NCBI GenBank assembly: GCA_016215105.1
Contig: JACRLJ010000132.1
Location: 1-36,134 of the forward strand
DNA: 36,134 nt
Source: Candidatus Hydrogenedentota bacterium
GTDB lineage: Bacteria; Hydrogenedentota; Hydrogenedentia; Hydrogenedentales; SLHB01
Reading direction: 5' to 3'
The notes below the pieces were generated by a model. The model had not been told where the DNA came from, did not search any database, and was given only the letters and a program-made list of their open reading frames with translations. This document shows, one piece after another, positions 14,271 through 22,970 of this stretch (positions within the stretch are counted from its first letter, which is position 1; each line of letters opens with the position of its first letter). A program made the translations under genes and the position numbers.

Positions 14271-17200
14271 TCATTTTGCGAGTTCGCGGCTGCGCGACAT
14301 GTAATAGAGGACGGGGACCGCCATTCGGGAGAGGAGCAGGGAGGCGACTTCGCCGGCCATCAGCGATATTGCGAGCCCCTGGAAGATGGGATCGAACAGG
14401 ATCACTGACGCGCCCACGATTACGGCGGCGGCGGTGAGCAACATGGGGCGGAAACGGACGGCGCCGGCGTCGACGACGGCCTCGGCGAGGGGCATCCCTT
14501 GCTTGAGGCGCAGTTCGATGAAGTCCACGAGGATGATCGAGTTGCGCACGACAATTCCGGCGCCGGCGATGAAGCCGATCATGGAGGTGGCGGTGAAGAA
14601 CGCCCCCATGAGCCAGTGCGCCGGCAGGATACCGACGAGCGAAAATGGAATTGCCGCCATGATCACGAACGGCGTTTTCATCGATTGAAACCAGCCGACT
14701 ACCAAGATGAAAATCAGCACGAGAACCGCCGCGAAGGCGAGACCCATGTCGCGGAAGACTTCGTAGGTGACATACCACTCGCCGTCCCATTTCAGTGACA
14801 GCTTGGCGGTAGAAACCGGTTGCTGCGTCGAAAGCTGCTCGATCGCGTAGCCCTCGCTTAAGTGAATCGCCGCCACGCGTTTCATGAGTTCGAAGATTAC
14901 GTATACGGGGCTCTCGGCTTTGCCGCCCACGTCGCCGGTGACGTACACGACGGGCATGAGATTCTTGTGATAGATGCTCTTGTCCTGAATTGCCGGCTCG
15001 ATGCGCGTGAGTTCGCCGAGCGACACGAGGTTACCATTGCGGCCCGCGATTTTGATCTCTTTCAGGTCGTCGAGGCTCGAACGATCACTGCGGGCCAGTT
15101 GCAGGTACACCGGCACGTCCTCTTTTTCCGCGGGCTTATGGACCAGCCCGACGCCCATACCGGAGAGAGCAATCTGCAACGTGCTGTTGACCTGTTCGAC
15201 AGAAACACCGTTCAGCGCCGCCTTCTCTTGATCAACCACGAAGGTATACTTCGTCTGGTCGTCCTCCATATAGGAGTCGGTGTCCACGACACCATCGGTG
15301 GTCTCGAAAATCTCGCGCACCTCTTTCGCCAATTCCAACTGCCGGGCGTAATCCGGACCGTAAATCTCGGCAACGAGCGTTTGCAGGACGGGTGGGCCCG
15401 GCGGGACTTCCGCGACCTTCACGCGCGCGCCGTACTTTGCGGCAATGACTTGAATCGCGGGGCGCGCGTGCTTGGCGATGTCATGGCTTTGCGCGCTGCG
15501 GTCGGCTCTCGGCGCCAGATTCACTTGAATGTCGGCCTCGTTTGGATTGTGGCGCGTGAAATAGTGCCGGACGAGTCCGTTGAAATTGTGGGGAGACGCC
15601 GCGCCGGTATACATCTGAAAATCGGTCACCTCCGGAATGCGCCGGACGTATTCGCCGATCTCGCGTGTAACGGCCGCGGTCTGTTCGAGCGTGGTTCCTT
15701 CGGGCATATCGATGATGATCTGGAATTCGCTTTTGTTGTCGAAGGGCAGCATTTTCGCAAGCACGCGTTGCAGCGGGACGAGCGCGCACGCGGCCAGCAG
15801 CAGGACGACGACACCGGCGAGGAAACCGTATCGGAGGGCGGGCTTCGTGACGAGCCCATTCATGACACGCCGGTACAGCCGGTCGAGTTTCCCCTCGGAG
15901 TGGCCATGGCTGGGCGCCGCGGCGGCGGTCTTCGTCTTCCGCAGCAGGCGAAGCGGATTCCAATTCGCTTTGGGCTGGCCCTCGGGCCGCAGCAGGCGGT
16001 ACGCAGCCCAGGGAGTCACCATGAACGACACGAGAACGGAAAAGACCATAGCTGCGGAGGCGCCGACTGGAATCGGCAGCATATACGGACCCATGAGCCC
16101 GCGCACAAAGGCCATGGGCAGAATCGCGGCGATTACCGCCGCCGTCGCCAACAGGGTGGGATTTCCGACCTCGTCCACGGCCTCGATTACCACATCCATG
16201 ACGGGCCGGCCTTTGCTTTCGGGAAGGTGGTAGTGACGCCCCACGTTTTCCACAACAACGATTGCGTCGTCGACGAGAATGCCGATAGAGAAGATGAGGG
16301 CGAACAGGGTCACGCGGTTGATGGTGTAGCCGTAGAAGTAGAACACGACGAGCGTGAGCGCGAGGGTTACCGGAATCGCAATCGCCACTGTACCCGACTC
16401 GCGCAGGCCCAGTGTGAACGCGATGAGCAATGTTACGGAGAGGATGGCCAGGCCCATGTGGTAGAGCAACTCATTCGACTTCTCTGCGGCTGTTTCGCCG
16501 TAGTTACGCGAAACGGTAAGGTCCACATCGCTCGGGACGATCTTGCCGCGCAGCGCATCGACCTTTTCGATGACCGCTTCCGCGACGACCGTCGCGTTGG
16601 TACCCTTGCGCTTGGCGACGGAAATGGTGACGGCAGGGGCGACGCTCTGGCTGCCGTCGGCCGCTTTGTCTCGTTGGCCAAGAACGTGGCTGAATCGCGC
16701 CGACGGGCCGTACGAGTTGAAGACGTAGTTCGCGGGTTCCTCGGGCCCATCCAGGATTTCCGCGACGTCCCGCAGATAGACGGGCCTCTGATCGTACACC
16801 CCGAGAACGACTGCGCCCACGTCGTCAGCGTTCTCGAGAAAGCGTCCGGCCTCGACGAGAAACTCCTGATTTTCCGTGGAAAAGGCGCCGGCTCGATCAT
16901 GCGAGTTTGCTGCGGCGAGGACGGGAAGAACAGACGCGGGCGCGACGCCGCGGGCCGCCATCTTTCCTTTGTCCAGCACCACGCGCACTTGACGGCGTTG
17001 TCCGCCAATGAGTTTTACCTCGGATACGTTGGGCGTCTCTTTAATAGCGTCGTGCAGTTGGGCCGCAATGCGGCGAAGCATGTAGTGGTCGTAACGTCCG
17101 CTGGACAGCGTAAGGGCAAGTATGGGAACGTCGTCGATGGAACGCGGTTTGATGAGGGGGCGGCTGCATCCGGGCGGAATCAGATCGAAGTTCGCCGACA

Positions 17201-17585
17201 TCTTCTGGTTCAGGCGGACAATGGCTTGCTCTTCGTTGGTTCCGACGAGGAAGCGGACGATGACGAACGAGGCGCCGGGGCTCGATGTAGAATAGACGTA
17301 TTCGACGCCGGGGATCTCCCAGAGGAGTTTCTCCATGGGCTTGGTGACGCGCTCTTCGATTTCTTTCGCGCTGGCGCCGGGCATTTGGACTGATACGTCC
17401 ACCATCGGCACGATGATCTGCGGCTCTTCTTCGCGCGGCAATAGCAACACCGCCCCGACGCCGAGCAAAATGGAGGCGCCAATCAGCAGCGGTGTGAGCT
17501 TGCTGTCTATGAAGGCATGCGCGATCTTTCCCGCAATGCCTCGCGGCGCGGGCGCCGCGGGTCCTTGTTTAGACTCGTCAGCCAT
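14271..17585 (-). CDS. Efflux RND transporter permease subunit
   Basis: 1104 residues if started at ATG 17585 (MADESKQG), which overlaps the end of the adaptor gene by 8 bases (ATGGCTGA), so translation is probably coupled; an upstream in-frame start exists but lies inside the adaptor gene. It is a proton-driven inner-membrane pump that works as a trimer with the adaptor and an outer-membrane channel. RND features: the first transmembrane helix at [15 protein letters not shown], then [20 protein letters not shown], the helix-4 motif [11 protein letters not shown] carrying the proton-relay Asp pair, and two periplasmic porter halves. No outer-membrane TolC-like gene is in the window. The substrate cannot be deduced. 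Confidence 0.92.
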
Positions 17586-18774
17586 TTTGGATGACACAGC
17601 CTTCGGTAACTTGAGCTGTGTTACCCATGACGACGCGGTCACCCGCGCTGAGACCGCTCAGGACTTCGACGGTGTCCCCGTACCGTTTTCCGACGGTGAT
17701 CAAGCGGAGACGGGCCTCGCTGTTCTCGGCGCCGACAACGTACACACCAGTCAACTGGCCTTGCTGGACGAGCGCGGCCGCCGGAACCGTAAGCGCGGCT
17801 TTCTGCGCCGCGCCGAAGGAGGCGCGGCCGAACATTCCCGAGCGAATTTCGGGGCGCGGCGGCAGATCGACTTTGATTAGGAAGGTGCGGCTCGCCGAAT
17901 CCGCGGCGGGCACGACTTCCGCGACCGTTCCGCTTATGGCGCCGGCTATGGCGTCCAGTGTAACGGAAACAGTGTCGCCCGGCTTTATGGCAGATACGCG
18001 CGCTTCGTCGACCAGGGCCTCGAGGCGGTACAGCCGCGTGTCCTCGATTTCGAGCAGCGGCACGCCCGGCGCCGCGAGGTCGCCGACCGCCACGCTCTTG
18101 CGCGTCACCACTCCTGCAAAGGGCGCGGCAATTTGCGTGTACGTCAATAGGGTTTTCGCGGCGCTGAGTTCGGCGGCCGCCTGCGCGACGAGCGCTTCGG
18201 CTTCGCTGGCGCGGGCTTGTACGGACACGGCCACGTCGCCGGCTTGCGCCGCCTCGGCTTCGGCGCCGCGCCAACGCGCGCTGGCTTCGTCGAAGGCCTG
18301 TTTGCTGACGGCCTGTCTATCCACAAGACCCTTGTAGCGTTGGAAGGTCGCTTGCGCGAGTGTGCCGGAAGCTTCCGCGGCAGTTTTCGCGTGCATCGCC
18401 GCGCGGACGGATCCGGCTGCGGCCTGACGCGAGTCCTGGGCTTCTTTCAACGCGGCCTCCGCGCGTTGCACCTGGGCCACGGCGTCCCGGTCATCGAGTT
18501 CGATGAGGATCTGGCCCGCTTGCACGGTGTCCCCTTCTTTTACGCGAAGGGCGGTGATATGCCCGACGGCTTTGCTTTGAATGGCGCTTGAGGAGGTCGA
18601 GCGGATGGTGCCCACGGCCTCGTACGTCGTCGCCACGGTGGTCTTGGTGACGACAGTCACGGGCGCGATTACGCTTGGCCGGTCGGGAGAGCCCGGCGCC
18701 TTGTGTGAACCGCCACAACTGGGCAGTGCAATCAGTACGCTGGCTGCTACTGCAAGATGGATCAAGCGCGGCAT
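17578..18774 (-). CDS. RND efflux periplasmic adaptor (membrane fusion protein), lipoprotein
   Basis: 398 residues from ATG 18774, with GGGAGGGA 5-12 bases upstream; the longer frame to 18822 lacks a ribosome site. The N-terminus [20 protein letters not shown] ends in a lipobox, so it is probably lipid-anchored in the periplasm. Order: lipoyl half-motif ([20 protein letters not shown]), a long alpha-hairpin rich in Ala/Gln (~95-200), second lipoyl half ([20 protein letters not shown]), beta-barrel and C-terminal domains. It links the RND pump to an outer-membrane channel. It is the first gene of the two-gene unit, overlapping the permease. Confidence 0.92.
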
Positions 18775-18830
18775 GGTTCCCTCCCTTCGTGTGTTGGTGA
18801 TGCGGCTCCGTTTACCCCACACGTTTGATA

Positions 18831-19151
18831 TTACACCCCCAAGGCGCGGCTAAGCACATCGGCGGATTGAACTCCGACGAAGCGGGACTGTTCTTTGCCG
18901 CCCTTGAAGACAATCAGCGTGGGGATAGACCGGACGTCGAGGTCCATGGCCACGTCTGCGACGTCGTCTACATTCACTTTGACCACGCGCGCCTTGTCGC
19001 CGACCTGTTCGGCTACCTGTTCGACGATGGGCATCTGGGCGCGGCACGGTCCGCACCATGTGGCCCACATGTCCACGAGGACGGGGACGTCGGCGTCAAG
19101 CACTTGTTCTTTGAAGTGGTTCTGGCTGGCGATTTGGGTTACTGCGTTCAT
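18831..19151 (-). CDS. trxA: Thioredoxin (internal start within a longer ORF)
   Basis: 106 residues from ATG 19151 with GGAGG 9 bases upstream, the normal length for thioredoxin. It reduces protein disulfides in the cytoplasm. The WCGPC active site sits in VDMWATWCGPCRAQMP, with the cis-proline segment RSIPTLIVFKGG further on. The frame is open upstream through a DUF6132-like membrane module (see 18831-19358), so both a free and a membrane-tethered form may be made. A sigma-54-type promoter lies before the longer ORF. Confidence 0.88.
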   Translation of the reverse strand: MNAVTQIASQNHFKEQVLDADVPVLVDMWATWCGPCRAQMPIVEQVAEQVGDKARVVKVNVDDVADVAMDLDVRSIPTLIVFKGGKEQSRFVGVQSADVLSRALGV

Positions 19152-19358
19152 TGTGGAATCCTCCATTGATGTTTTCCATGAGGTAGCTGCGTGACTCATC
19201 AGGGCTGAGACGATGAGAAAACCCATCAGTCCGCCGTAGATCGCGCCCAAGTACGGGTTCGAGGTCAGTGGACACGCTCCCGTAGTACAACTGCGGGAAG
19301 ACCCAATCCAGGCGCCTATGGCGCCTCCAATTATCACACCTGCCGCTTGCGCTATCAT
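18831..19358 (-). CDS. DUF6132-like membrane module continuous with thioredoxin
   Basis: The full frame from ATG 19358 (AAGGAG 6-8 bases upstream) encodes 175 residues. Residues 1-54 form a two-helix glycine-rich membrane module (AAGVIIGGAIGAWIGSS; CTTGACPLTSNPYLGAIYGG; LMGFLIVSAL) like DUF6132 proteins. A linker (HAATSWKTSMEDST) then leads straight into the thioredoxin at residue 70, with no stop codon. Either it is a true fusion giving a membrane-anchored thioredoxin, or the small membrane protein gene has lost its stop and trxA is made from its own internal start. DUF6132 proteins are normally ~50-70 residues. The two cysteines of the membrane module could be substrates of the thioredoxin. 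Confidence 0.7.
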   Translation of the reverse strand: MIAQAAGVIIGGAIGAWIGSSRSCTTGACPLTSNPYLGAIYGGLMGFLIVSALMSHAATSWKTSMEDSTMNAVTQIASQNHFKEQVLDADVPVLVDMWATWCGPCRAQMPIVEQVAEQVGDKARVVKVNVDDVADVAMDLDVRSIPTLIVFKGGKEQSRFVGVQSADVLSRALGV

Positions 19359-19407
19359 TTTGGTCTCCTTAGGGCGTCGTATCTCGAGTGCCCTTGCGAG
19401 ATACTAT

Positions 19408-19423
19408 GGCAACCCGTGTGCCA
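19408..19423 (-). promoter_or_regulatory. Sigma-54 promoter for the DUF6132/thioredoxin ORF
   Basis: On the minus strand TGGCACACGGGTTGCC matches the sigma-54 consensus TGGCACG-N4-TTGC with the obligatory GG-N10-GC spacing. It lies 50 bases upstream of the ATG at 19358. Confidence 0.75.
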
Positions 19424-19450
19424 GCTTGACGCAGTAGACGTTGACTCGTC

Positions 19451-19465
19451 GTAACACGCTGTTAC
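19451..19465. promoter_or_regulatory. GTAAC-N5-GTTAC dyad, possible activator site
   Basis: GTAACACGCTGTTAC lies 28 bases upstream of the sigma-54 element at 19408-19423. A related dyad GTAACGTTAACTGTTAC is at 19712-19728. They could be enhancer sites for a sigma-54 activator; this is inference. Confidence 0.35.
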
Positions 19466-19487
19466 AGAATAGCTTGCACTTTGCGAA

Positions 19488-19569
19488 CAAGAATGTACGC
19501 TCTGTCCTTCAGTTCATAGTAGCGTTACCAACTTATCAGGCAACGCTACTAACACACGTTACATTCTTG
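19488..19569. repeat. Nested inverted repeats
   Basis: The outer arms CAAGAATGTA (19488-19497) and TACATTCTTG (19560-19569) enclose the inner arms AGTAGCGTT (19518-19526) and AACGCTACT (19542-19550). No gene is inside. Confidence 0.5.
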
Positions 19570-19574
19570 ATTCA

Positions 19575-19709
19575 TTTAATTCAGGGACAGACTACGATTT
19601 AAGGAAGCCTTGTCGAACTTCATGGGTGTTGGCCGACGAGAACGAGGGAAAGCCGAGGATCTTGGCGACTTCGTAGCGGCTTTAATTCGTAGTCTGTCCC
19701 TGAATTAAA
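19575..19709. repeat. 135-bp element with 23-bp perfect terminal inverted repeats
   Basis: Bases 19575-19597 (TTTAATTCAGGGACAGACTA and CGA) are the exact reverse complement of 19687-19709, around an 89-bp core. The core holds a 29-codon open stretch on the minus strand (RYEVAKILGFPSFSS...), without a start. The shape fits a non-autonomous mobile element or REP-like unit. The core motif CAGGGACAGAC recurs at 7144. Confidence 0.65.
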
Positions 19710-19830
19710 ATGTAACGTTAACTGTTACGCTACATTTCTCATTTTGTAACGGGTGAAACAGGTGGCCCGCTGGGCGAGGTGAAACCCGGCGGGCCTGGAG
19801 GTAGGAAGACGCTTGTTTGCGGAAGTAGGG

Positions 19831-20019
19831 TTAGTCGGGTACTCCTAATCGGCGGAGGAAGGTCATCATGGGGCACCAGTTGGTGAAGGCGGATTGGGCT
19901 AAGTTGAGTCCTACGAAGCCTGTAAATAACAGCCAGTAGGGTGAGTGAAATGCGGCGAGGAGCGCGGATAGGAACACGAAGGTTCCGGCAATAAGGCGCA
20001 ACCAGCGATTGACGTTCAT
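19831..20019 (-). CDS. DUF2892 family small membrane protein
   Basis: 62 residues, start ATG 20019 with AAAAAGGAG upstream. Two hydrophobic helices (LIAGTFVFLSALLAAF and YWLLFTGFVGLNLAQSAF) are followed by TNWCPMMTFLRRLGV, the typical conserved Cys-Pro end of DUF2892, a domain often linked to rhodanese and sulfur-handling proteins. It is an inner-membrane protein of unknown function. It is preceded by a sigma-54-type promoter and transcribed toward the DUF6132/thioredoxin ORF, with which it shares that promoter class. Confidence 0.85.
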   Translation of the reverse strand: MNVNRWLRLIAGTFVFLSALLAAFHSPYWLLFTGFVGLNLAQSAFTNWCPMMTFLRRLGVPD

Positions 20020-20245: not shown

Positions 20246-21511
20246 ATGGTGAAGGACATGGAGAGCATGGTGGAGTTGGGTTGCTTGGTAGAGCGATCGC
20301 GTGAGGGTGACTTGGACGCGTTCACGGAAGTGGTTCGGCGATTCCAGGGCATGGCGCACGGATACGCCTATTCGATTCTGGGCGATTTCCATCTGGCGCA
20401 GGACACGGCTCAAGAGGCCTTTGTCGAGGCGTATTACAAACTGGGTGACCTAAGGGCGCCGTCCGCGTTTCCGGGTTGGTTTCGCCGCATTGTGTTCAAG
20501 CACTGCGACCGGGTCACTCGAAAGCGCCGTGGCGTAACCGTGCCGTTGAACGACGCGATCGCCGCGCCGCCGCGTCAAGACCAGTCGGAAATGCGAGAGG
20601 CCGTCTTGCGCGCCATTCGGAGTCTGCCGGAACGTCAGCGGGAAGCCACCACGCTCTATTACATCGATGGATACTCACAGGCGGAGATTGCGGAGTTTCT
20701 GGAAGTGCCCGTGACCACGGTGCAGAAGCGCCTGCACGATTCAAGGAAAAGGCTGAAGGAAAGGATGGCTGATATGGTTGGACCGACCCTGAAAGACAGC
20801 GCGCCCGACGAACGGTTTTCTCGAAGCGTTATTGCCGAATTGCTGGCGCGGCCGAATCTACTCTTGATGGAAGGGCATCCGGTGAAACAGGTCTTCGACG
20901 CGGTTCGCGCGGCGCTGCCGGAGTACGAGTGGACCGAAGGGGACGAGGTAATCGAGGAAAGCGATCCCAATAAGGTTTATCACGTGGAAGTGCAGGAAGC
21001 CACATATCACGTGGACTCGGGACGCGTGCTTAGGACGAGCACCACGCCGGCGGTGATGCGCGCTTTGGCTGGACGAACGAGTCCGGTTCGCTTGATCACG
21101 GCCGGGCGGGCGTTTCGCGCAGGCGCGGTGAACGACCATCCGATGCGTTCAAATGTATTTCATCAGCTGGATGTGTTGCACATTGACGTCGATGCAGACC
21201 GAAAGCGGTTAAGGCGCGAGTTGGAGCGCTTGGTAACAGCCGCGTTGGGGTCGGTGGAATTGGAGTGGACGATGCGAGACGAGCAATTCCCCGGGTATGC
21301 CGACAGCGCCGACGTCTACCTTCACCACTCCGGGTCGAAACTCGAGATCGCGGGCGGCGGGATGCTGGCCAACGCGACGCTTGCGGCCGCCGGGTTTGAT
21401 CCGGAAAAGGTGTCGGGCTTTGGCTTCGGCGTCGGCCTCGAGCGCCTGACAATGCGCAAACTCGGCCTTGACAGCATCCACGCGCTCTATCGACCGCCCT
21501 ACGTGGGGTAA
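20246..21511 (+). CDS. ECF-type sigma-70 factor fused to a PheS-like class II aminoacyl-tRNA synthetase core
   Basis: 421 residues from ATG 20246; the frame is open to GTG 20156, and ATGs at 20258 or 20267 are also possible because no start has a clear ribosome site. Residues ~12-95 are sigma region 2 (FLAQDTAQEAF-type helix, here HLAQDTAQEAFVEAYYKL), and ~122-175 are sigma region 4 (LPERQREATTLYYIDGYSQA). Residues ~205-421 resemble the catalytic core of phenylalanyl-tRNA synthetase alpha: LRTSTTP (262-268), a motif-2 region GRAFR (287-291) with FHQLD (305-309), LEIAGGGM, and the motif-3 block SGFGFGVGLERLTM (390-403). The N-terminal tRNA-binding coiled coil of PheS is absent. A ligand-sensing sigma factor is the likeliest reading, but this is inference. 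The chimera lies in one frame with no sign of assembly break. Confidence 0.88.
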   Translation: MVKDMESMVELGCLVERSREGDLDAFTEVVRRFQGMAHGYAYSILGDFHLAQDTAQEAFVEAYYKLGDLRAPSAFPGWFRRIVFKHCDRVTRKRRGVTVPLNDAIAAPPRQDQSEMREAVLRAIRSLPERQREATTLYYIDGYSQAEIAEFLEVPVTTVQKRLHDSRKRLKERMADMVGPTLKDSAPDERFSRSVIAELLARPNLLLMEGHPVKQVFDAVRAALPEYEWTEGDEVIEESDPNKVYHVEVQEATYHVDSGRVLRTSTTPAVMRALAGRTSPVRLITAGRAFRAGAVNDHPMRSNVFHQLDVLHIDVDADRKRLRRELERLVTAALGSVELEWTMRDEQFPGYADSADVYLHHSGSKLEIAGGGMLANATLAAAGFDPEKVSGFGFGVGLERLTMRKLGLDSIHALYRPPYVG

Positions 21512-21527
21512 GATTCAGAATTGCGTG

Positions 21528-22970
21528 TCAGGTGGTTGGATTGAGCGGGATTCCGAGTTGGGTCATGCGGCGCCAGAGGTGGGTTCGGGTTATGCCGAGG
21601 CGGCGGGCGGCTTCGGCTTTGTTCCATCCGGATTCGTTGAGCAATGTCACTAACTCGTCTTTGCCGACGGGGCGGCGTTTGGGCGTTGACGGCGTTGGCA
21701 CGAAATCGAAGACCGGCGGCGGGACTGGCGGCGGCATCTTTAGTTCCGCGCGCCGGATTTCGATGGGCAGGTCGAGAGGTCCGATCGCGCCCCCGCGGCA
21801 GGTGACGAAGGCATGCTCGACGGCGTTCTCAAGTTCACGCACGTTGCCCGGCCAGGGATAGTCGAGAATCATTCGCATTGCATCCGGGTCGACGCCGGAG
21901 ATCGTTTTTCCTGTTCGCTCATTGAACTTGACGATGAAGGCCTCGACGAGCAGGCCGATGTCTTCTTTGCGTTGGCGGAGCGGAGGCAGATAGATCGGGA
22001 ACACCTGAAGGCGGTAGAACAGGTCTTCTCGAAACGATCCCTGGTTGACGCGTTCTCGAAGGTCCCGATGTGTCGCGGCAATGATTCGCACGTCCACCTT
22101 GCGCGGCTTGGCGTCTCCGATGCGTTCGATCTCGCGTTCCTGGATGACGCGGAGCAATTTCACTTGAAGCGCGAGCGGAATTTCGCCGACCTCATCGAGG
22201 AAGATGGTCCCGCCTTCGGCGAGTTCGAAGCGCCCGATGTGATCTTTGAGGGCGCCTGTAAACGAGCCGCGGACGTGGCCGAAGAGTTCGCTTTCGACGA
22301 GGGTTTCGGATAGGGCGGCGCAGTTCACGCTCACGAGGGGTCCGGCGCGCCGTTCGCTATGGTAATGAATAGCTTTGGCGACGAGTTCTTTTCCGGTTCC
22401 GGTTTCGCCGTAGATTAGCGCGGTGGTTTGCGATGCGGCGGCCAGTTCGACGAGATTGAATAGTTCTCGCATGGCGGGGCTCTTGCCGACGATGTTGTGG
22501 AACTCGTAGCGCTGCTGGACCTCGCTGCGGAGCAGACTAACCTCGGTTTCAAGCCGTTTGAGCGTCGAGATATCCGTCACGGTCACCACCGCGCCTGCGG
22601 GATTCTCGTCCGGATCGCGGAGCACCCGCGCGCTGATGAGCGCCGGCAGCGTCGAGCCGTCTTTGCACAGGATTGTGAGTTCGGACCGGTCAAGATTACC
22701 CGCCGCAAAGAGCTGGCAGAACATGGCTTCCTTAGCGGCTTCCTCGTCGACATCGCGCTGGAGCCACGTGAACACCCCGCACGGATTGCCTACGGTCTCG
22801 TCGCGCGAGTAGCCGGTAAGCCGTTCCATGGCCCGGTTCCATCGCCGTACGACGCGCAGCGTGTCCAGCACAAACACGCCGTCCGCCATGGTGTCCATGA
22901 TGGCTTCCAACTCTTGGGCGGCGTCTTCTCGGGTTCCCAGCATGGTCTCGCGCTCCGGTTGCGGGTCCAT
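21528..22970 (-). CDS. PAS-domain sigma-54-dependent transcriptional activator
   Basis: 480 residues. An N-terminal PAS sensor (~22-135: [20 protein letters not shown], then a TVTDIS end) is followed by a sigma-54 AAA+ domain with Walker [15 protein letters not shown] (variant of the GAFTGA loop that contacts sigma-54), Walker [12 protein letters not shown] and the R-finger region. A Fis-type helix-turn-helix ([20 protein letters not shown]) ends the protein. It has no receiver domain, so it is ligand- or redox-controlled rather than phosphorylated. It converges on the sigma/PheS gene with 16 bases between, and diverges from the EF-hand protein gene. The start has no clear ribosome site; ATG 22943 is an alternative. 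Confidence 0.92.

Follow-up and report, generated by a model that had tools for sequence, protein, structure and literature searches.

An ECF sigma factor fused to a PheS-like class II synthetase core, a candidate cis-acting switch

A sigma factor and a synthetase core in one reading frame

The window, by which we mean the whole 36,134-nucleotide stretch of DNA analyzed here, carries a gene whose product joins an ECF sigma factor to a PheS-like class II synthetase core. We think it somewhat probable that this sigma factor is regulated in cis by the repurposed PheS domain, acting as a ligand-binding or conformational switch. Translation of positions 20246-21511 on the forward strand gives 421 residues and a stop in an unbroken frame, at the coordinates expected from the original prediction, with an alternative in-frame start at the ATG at 20258 (Table 1). 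Both sigma regions score above their Pfam cut-offs (Sigma70_r2, PF04542, 24 bits; Sigma70_r4_2, PF08281, 25.7 bits), only a short linker lies between them, and the protein reaches 79.9 bits against TIGR02937 (cut-off 42.9 bits), as is characteristic of ECF sigma factors. A second linker of ~40 residues separates region 4 from the synthetase core, in which tRNA-synt_2d (PF01409) matches residues 228-417 with 101.7 bits (E 5.7e-29; gathering cut-off 19.8 bits). This match and the class II fold match to 3pco_A described below identify the domain as a class II synthetase core. The original prediction of sigma regions 2 and 4 and a PheS-like part in one frame was thus upheld by three profiles, and all of the PheS motifs that it quoted are present in the translation. 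It was also right that the tRNA-binding coiled coil is missing: in the alignment the core lines up with E. coli PheS from about H107 onward. At the other end, the C-terminal tail of PheS, NDxRFLxQF, is replaced by RPPYVG in the window protein (alignment). The fusion protein therefore has a folded C-terminal extension behind sigma4 that is kept in its homologs, the structural hallmark of an extended ECF.

Table 1. Features of the fusion gene and its neighbors in the window, and loci that carry other C-terminal modules.
Feature	Position in the window, or locus	Strand	Basis or comment
Whole ORF, ECF sigma factor and PheS-like class II synthetase core, 421 aa	20246..21511	+	one frame
Sigma-70 region 2, residues 30-95	20333..20530	+	PF04542, 34.8 bits
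Sigma-70 region 4, residues 117-170	20594..20755	+	PF08281, 62 bits
Linker, residues 171-210, common to all three fusions	20756..20875	+	alignment
PheS-like class II synthetase core, residues 211-421	20876..21508	+	PF01409 (residues 228-417), PDB profile, model, alignment
Motif 2, GRAFR...FHQ, residues 287-307	21104..21166	+	R195, Phe206 and Gln208 equivalents kept; acidic D197 lost
Former Phe side-chain pocket FPFTEPS, now FPGYADS, residues 348-354	21287..21307	+	alignment
LEIAGGGM, residues 366-373	21341..21364	+	Glu268 equivalent kept
Motif 3, SGFGFGVGLERLTM, residues 390-403	21413..21454	+	Arg301 kept; A294 -> Gly
Small membrane protein, DUF2892-like by eye	19831-20019		divergent from the fusion
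NtrC-type regulator	21528-22970		convergent with the fusion
Loci with other C-terminal modules on the same or a nearby ECF type	L003, L042, L126-L131, L079, L142-L151, L041/L045, L078		

Conservation of the fusion in three genera

The search within the phylum covered the family of the window genome (25 genomes) and the entire phylum as represented in the collection (68 genomes), where it is a single order. Besides the window genome (G000), two genomes encode the same architecture, and both proteins align with the window protein over the full length: G016:C27 (homolog L010), with 54% identity, and G011:C239 (L011/L040), with 36% identity. The fusion is thus carried by 3 of the 68 genomes of the phylum, in three genera of one family. 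No fusion was found in about 526 genomes outside the phylum, which are small samples of known diversity: the searches of 318 genomes sampled across the domain, of 16 genomes from the phylum of G316 and of 195 genomes from the phylum of G095 (where the search had no positive control) were negative. Plasmids and viral contigs gave no fusion either. In a scan of genome contigs the sole match was an ordinary pheS beside pheT in Promineifilum, with no fusion.

Because homologs with the same architecture exist, the reading that an assembly artefact or frameshift join produced the fusion is already refuted, and we give it practically no credence. The window genome is assembled in 171 contigs and its housekeeping pheS appears chimeric, which would be in keeping with such a reading; against it, two further genomes share the architecture and a conserved junction, and the fused domain did not arise from that housekeeping pheS (32% identity; tree). 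The junction residues conserved in G000, G016 and G011 are D188, R190, S192, I196-L200, P203, L206 and G210-V213 (alignment). Between G000 and G016, conservation at codon positions 1, 2 and 3 is 0.78, 0.80 and 0.44 in the sigma part and 0.57, 0.67 and 0.39 in the C-terminal part, and GC3 is continuous across the junction (0.72 and 0.74). The conserved junction in G016 and G011 and the coding pattern on both sides exclude the artefact near codon 190 that had been raised as a concern.

A further ORF of 60 aa in G011, an orphan on contig C286 (L085:6138-6318) that directly follows a NUDIX-like gene, has retained the final ~45 residues of the PheS-like domain, is about 60% identical to the window protein and has the motif 3 Arg intact. 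Judged by this similarity, it is the remnant of a second copy of the PheS-like domain.

Relationship of the C-terminal domain to PheS

In both sequence and fold, the solved structures closest to the C-terminal domain are those of bacterial PheRS alpha subunits (PDB profile match to PheRS alpha, E 5e-37); SepRS and PylRS rank behind them. A model of the domain (m44a8c6291262; mean pLDDT 71, pTM 0.72) matches 3pco_A with a Z score of 20.6 and an rmsd of 2.5 over 194 residues, a likeness that is not independent of the sequence match, the model having been built from a mostly PheS alignment. The original prediction proposed a structural model as a check for an intact class II active site; a PheS-type fold is predicted, and the active-site residues differ among the members as described below. 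A full-length AlphaFold model has an overall mean pLDDT of 60 with low confidence in the sigma part, and given this low confidence the domain packing in it was left unused.

Against the PheS equivalog TIGR00468 the window protein scores 85-87 bits (87.3 in one scan), far under the cut-off of 237.45 bits, which indicates a homolog of PheS that falls outside the standard PheS family. Besides this low score, the N-terminal coiled coil, the FPFTEPS pocket and NF..LN..HPAR loop, and a pheT neighbor are all features of PheS that the fusion does not have; the pheS-pheT pair of G000 is on contig C28, and there is no pheT near the fusion in the window. Charging of tRNA together with PheT is thought unlikely, given that the coiled coil and the pheT neighbor are both absent. 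In a phylogenetic tree the fused domains form their own clade (100/98), apart from all sampled housekeeping PheS proteins including those of the hosts, whose genomes encode a separate PheS elsewhere; the branches are long and call for caution on the exact origin of the fused domains. This separation from every sampled PheS means that the domain is not a recent duplicate, and a recent origin from the host pheS was rejected (32% identity; clade at 100/98), subject to the same long-branch caution. Membership in SrmL (NF051887) was also rejected, the window protein scoring 79.4-81.6 bits, far below the cut-off of 300 bits, and the HisZ model TIGR00443 gave 13.9 bits (cut-off 271.65 bits).

Two observations were made on other PheS proteins. 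The only housekeeping pheS of G000 (L089:3085-4665 on G000:C28, minus strand) is one 526-aa ORF with a YggS/PLPBP-looking N-terminal part that is joined to PheS inside the coiled coil, and pheT follows directly; this ORF may reflect a misassembly at a microhomology or a real fusion. Large viral contigs (L139 and L140, 236 and 323 kb) encode PheS-like proteins in which the FPFTEPS pocket is intact, and these are just 32-36% identical to a bacterial PheS.

Active-site residues

A reference set of 63 PheS sequences defines 66 near-invariant positions, and of these G000 keeps 28, G016 33 and G011 23. We scored seven positions (E. coli R195, H202, F206, Q208, E210, E268 and R301) that we take to contact ATP or the amino group, from established class II knowledge and the Thermus PheRS numbering. 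Five of the seven are retained in G000, all seven in G016 and none in G011; the retention in G016 exceeds random retention (P about 0.005) and that in G011 has P about 0.04 against the same expectation, both P values being a guide only, as the positions were chosen by the authors. The motif 2 Arg, Phe206, Gln208, Glu268 and the motif 3 Arg are kept in both G000 and G016. Of the residues expected in an active class II enzyme, these two members therefore keep both arginines and lose the acidic residue, D197 of motif 2, which is gone in all three members; G011 has lost all of them.

The Phe side-chain pocket FPFTEPS has become FPGYADS, FPRFEQC and HPLASPY in the three members, with F250 and T251 altered in each, and the NF..LN..HPAR loop of PheS is lost or eroded in the fusions. 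In E. coli PheS, the substitution Ala294Gly leads to relaxed specificity (PMC3275996). From the alignment, the pocket of the fusion is a non-standard phenylalanine pocket; with n=3 members, a relaxed pocket constraint is not distinguishable from a new specificity, and the differing pocket residues of G000 and G016 mean that no common ligand can be read from the sequence. Judged by its residues, the G011 domain resembles a pseudoenzyme. It seems unlikely on this pattern that the whole family shares an essential catalytic role, and a binding or conformational role for the domain would be more economical than shared catalysis.

Gene neighborhood and related sigma factors

The fusion gene stands alone in the window. 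Positions 14271-20019 of the window hold the divergent DUF2892-like gene and, beyond it, an ORF that contains a thioredoxin and genes for an RND efflux pump and its membrane fusion protein, and the 226-bp intergenic region between the DUF2892-like gene and the fusion is a candidate target of the sigma factor. In G016, an NlpC/P60-like gene begins 28 bp downstream of the fusion on the same strand and a methyltransferase-like gene is next after it (L010:63-1460, minus strand; both assigned by eye), and the three genes form a possible operon. The G011 contig terminates just past the fusion gene. No neighboring gene is common to the three loci, that of G011 extending only to this contig end, and no anti-sigma gene was recognized beside the fusion. 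No bipartite promoter motif is common to the three upstream regions, of which that of G016 is only 169 bp, and a sigma-70 and terminator scan was uninformative.

In the sigma factor tree, G000 and G016 are close neighbors and the placement of G011 is less firm. Among the closest sigma relatives in the phylum, G000:C159 (L003) has a kinase domain and a FliG_C-like end, and a kinase-like domain is also found in G009 (L042). Related sigma factors bear ankyrin-repeat tails in G052, G028, G027, G047, G037, G053 and the phylum of G316 (repeats judged by eye) and a GNAT-like tail in G008 (L041/L045; by eye, without a Pfam match), and in a sigma factor from a Paenibacillus plasmid, which is more distant, the extra domain is of the glyoxalase/VOC type. 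Sigma factors of this clade appear to swap their C-terminal modules, in which case the PheS-like domain is best viewed as one of several modules on a shared platform. The range of tails in this clade (kinase, ankyrin, GNAT-like and PheS-like) points to a modular platform on which one-protein transcription switches may be built. Among the ECF sigma factors of G000 more generally, many have long C-terminal extensions of several hundred to >1000 residues, in which a transmembrane segment is often apparent.

A proposed cis-acting switch and its alternatives

We propose that a sigma2-sigma4 protein acquired its C-terminal domain from a class II synthetase of the PheRS alpha type, and that this domain would bind either a partner protein or a small ligand, which may be a carboxylate resembling an amino acid, alone or together with a nucleotide. 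Binding would alter the packing of the domain on sigma2/sigma4, and the altered packing would switch RNA polymerase or promoter engagement; the synthetase fold would serve as the receptor, much as HisZ reports histidine with a HisRS fold. In favor of such a switch we count the retention of the fusion in three genera with a conserved linker and coding-type conservation on both sides, the absent coiled coil, altered C-terminal tail and predicted PheS-type fold, and the nucleotide-site residues (5/7 in G000, 7/7 in G016, 0/7 in G011) alongside a side-chain pocket changed in all. To these we add the sister sigma factors with other C-terminal modules, the lack of a recognized anti-sigma gene next door, and the precedents of C-terminal regulatory extensions (PMC8999054) and HisZ (PMC9437257). 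Counting against it are the unlike pockets of G000 and G016 and the neighbors and upstream motif, which are not shared.

A narrower proposal, that promoter activity is set by a small molecule recognized, or made into an acyl-adenylate, in the repurposed PheS active site, can be advanced only tentatively. G000 and G016 may still bind ATP or form an adenylate; given the G011 residues, neither activity can be required in all members. Given the differing side-chain pockets, each lineage may read a different ligand. The original prediction that the domain senses a small ligand is consistent with these data, and the identity that it suggested, an amino acid or aminoacyl-adenylate, is weakened by the changed pocket, the loss of D197 and the losses in G011, and is possible for G000 and G016. 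In outline the original view holds; as a precedent, HisZ fits better than GCN2.

The residues kept in G000 and G016 (the motif 2 Arg, Phe206, Gln208, Glu268 and the motif 3 Arg), and the retention of all seven scored positions in G016 above random expectation (P about 0.005), would also suit an active ligase that adenylates a putative acid and passes it on to a small molecule, to a partner protein or to the sigma factor itself, the adenylate or the modification then setting promoter choice. We consider such a ligase unlikely, since D197 is lost in all three members, G011 is without any tested site residue and the pocket is not conserved between G000 and G016. The dead active site of G011 could instead point to a scaffold, a module for dimerization or protein interaction only, perhaps self-pairing or pairing with the cell's PheRS, with synthetase features that are ancestral; the ankyrin repeats found at the same place in the related sigma clade are protein-binding as well. 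However, ATP-site residues are kept in G000 and G016, and the NF..LN..HPAR loop and the PheS C-terminal tail are lost, so that pairing with PheT in the manner of PheS looks unlikely, and the scaffold as a whole seems to us rather improbable. That the C-terminal domain is a decaying relic with no role might be argued from the low identity among members, the lost active site of G011 and the orphan 45-residue tail on C286, but a frame open in three genera and codon positions 1 and 2 conserved above position 3 make this very unlikely.

The narrower proposal, if true, would tie a synthetase-type substrate to transcription initiation within a single protein. If the domain is a receptor, a ligand of the synthetase type would act on RNA polymerase directly through one component, which a single purified protein would suffice to test, and G011, which is without every ATP-site residue tested, provides a natural control within the set.

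Comparison with known systems

Synthetase folds have been reused as sensors, as in HisZ and GCN2, and as ligases. BirA combines a class II-like ligase domain with a DNA-binding domain, and its effector is the adenylate. Like BirA, the fusion has a ligase-like domain and a DNA-binding part in one protein; it differs in being a PheS-type domain on a sigma factor, whereas BirA has a biotinyl ligase fold and is a repressor. With PheS (TIGR00468, PF01409) the fusion shares a homologous catalytic-core fold and motifs, and it departs from PheS in having no coiled coil and no adjacent pheT, a changed Phe pocket and a score far under the cut-off. SrmL (NF051887), a PheS-related mystery ligase, resembles the fusion as a PheS-like core outside translation, with 80-100 bits for G000 and G016, although the fusion falls far beneath its 300-bit cut-off.

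HisZ, the regulatory subunit of ATP phosphoribosyltransferase, is a synthetase paralog that lacks adenylation activity yet continues to relay a histidine signal (PMC9437257). It likewise reuses a synthetase-derived domain for regulation with no need of adenylation (PMC9437257), but it is derived from HisRS and acts on HisG rather than on a sigma factor, and the likeness is one of mechanism only. At least 26 ECF groups have extensions, and cis regulation has been proposed for the SnoaL-like extension of ECF41 and the C-terminal extension of CorE (PMC8999054); this review of ECF extensions makes no mention of a synthetase extension. A search of the open-access literature, limited in scope, returned no publication on an ECF with a synthetase domain, in agreement with the original prediction that no such group had been described. 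Reuse of synthetase folds and C-terminal domains on ECFs are each already known, and their joining appears from that limited search to be undescribed. Like the ECFs with a C-terminal extension (PMC8999054), the fusion consists of sigma2-sigma4 and an extra domain with no recognized anti-sigma factor nearby; unlike them, it has as its extra domain a PheS-type class II synthetase core.
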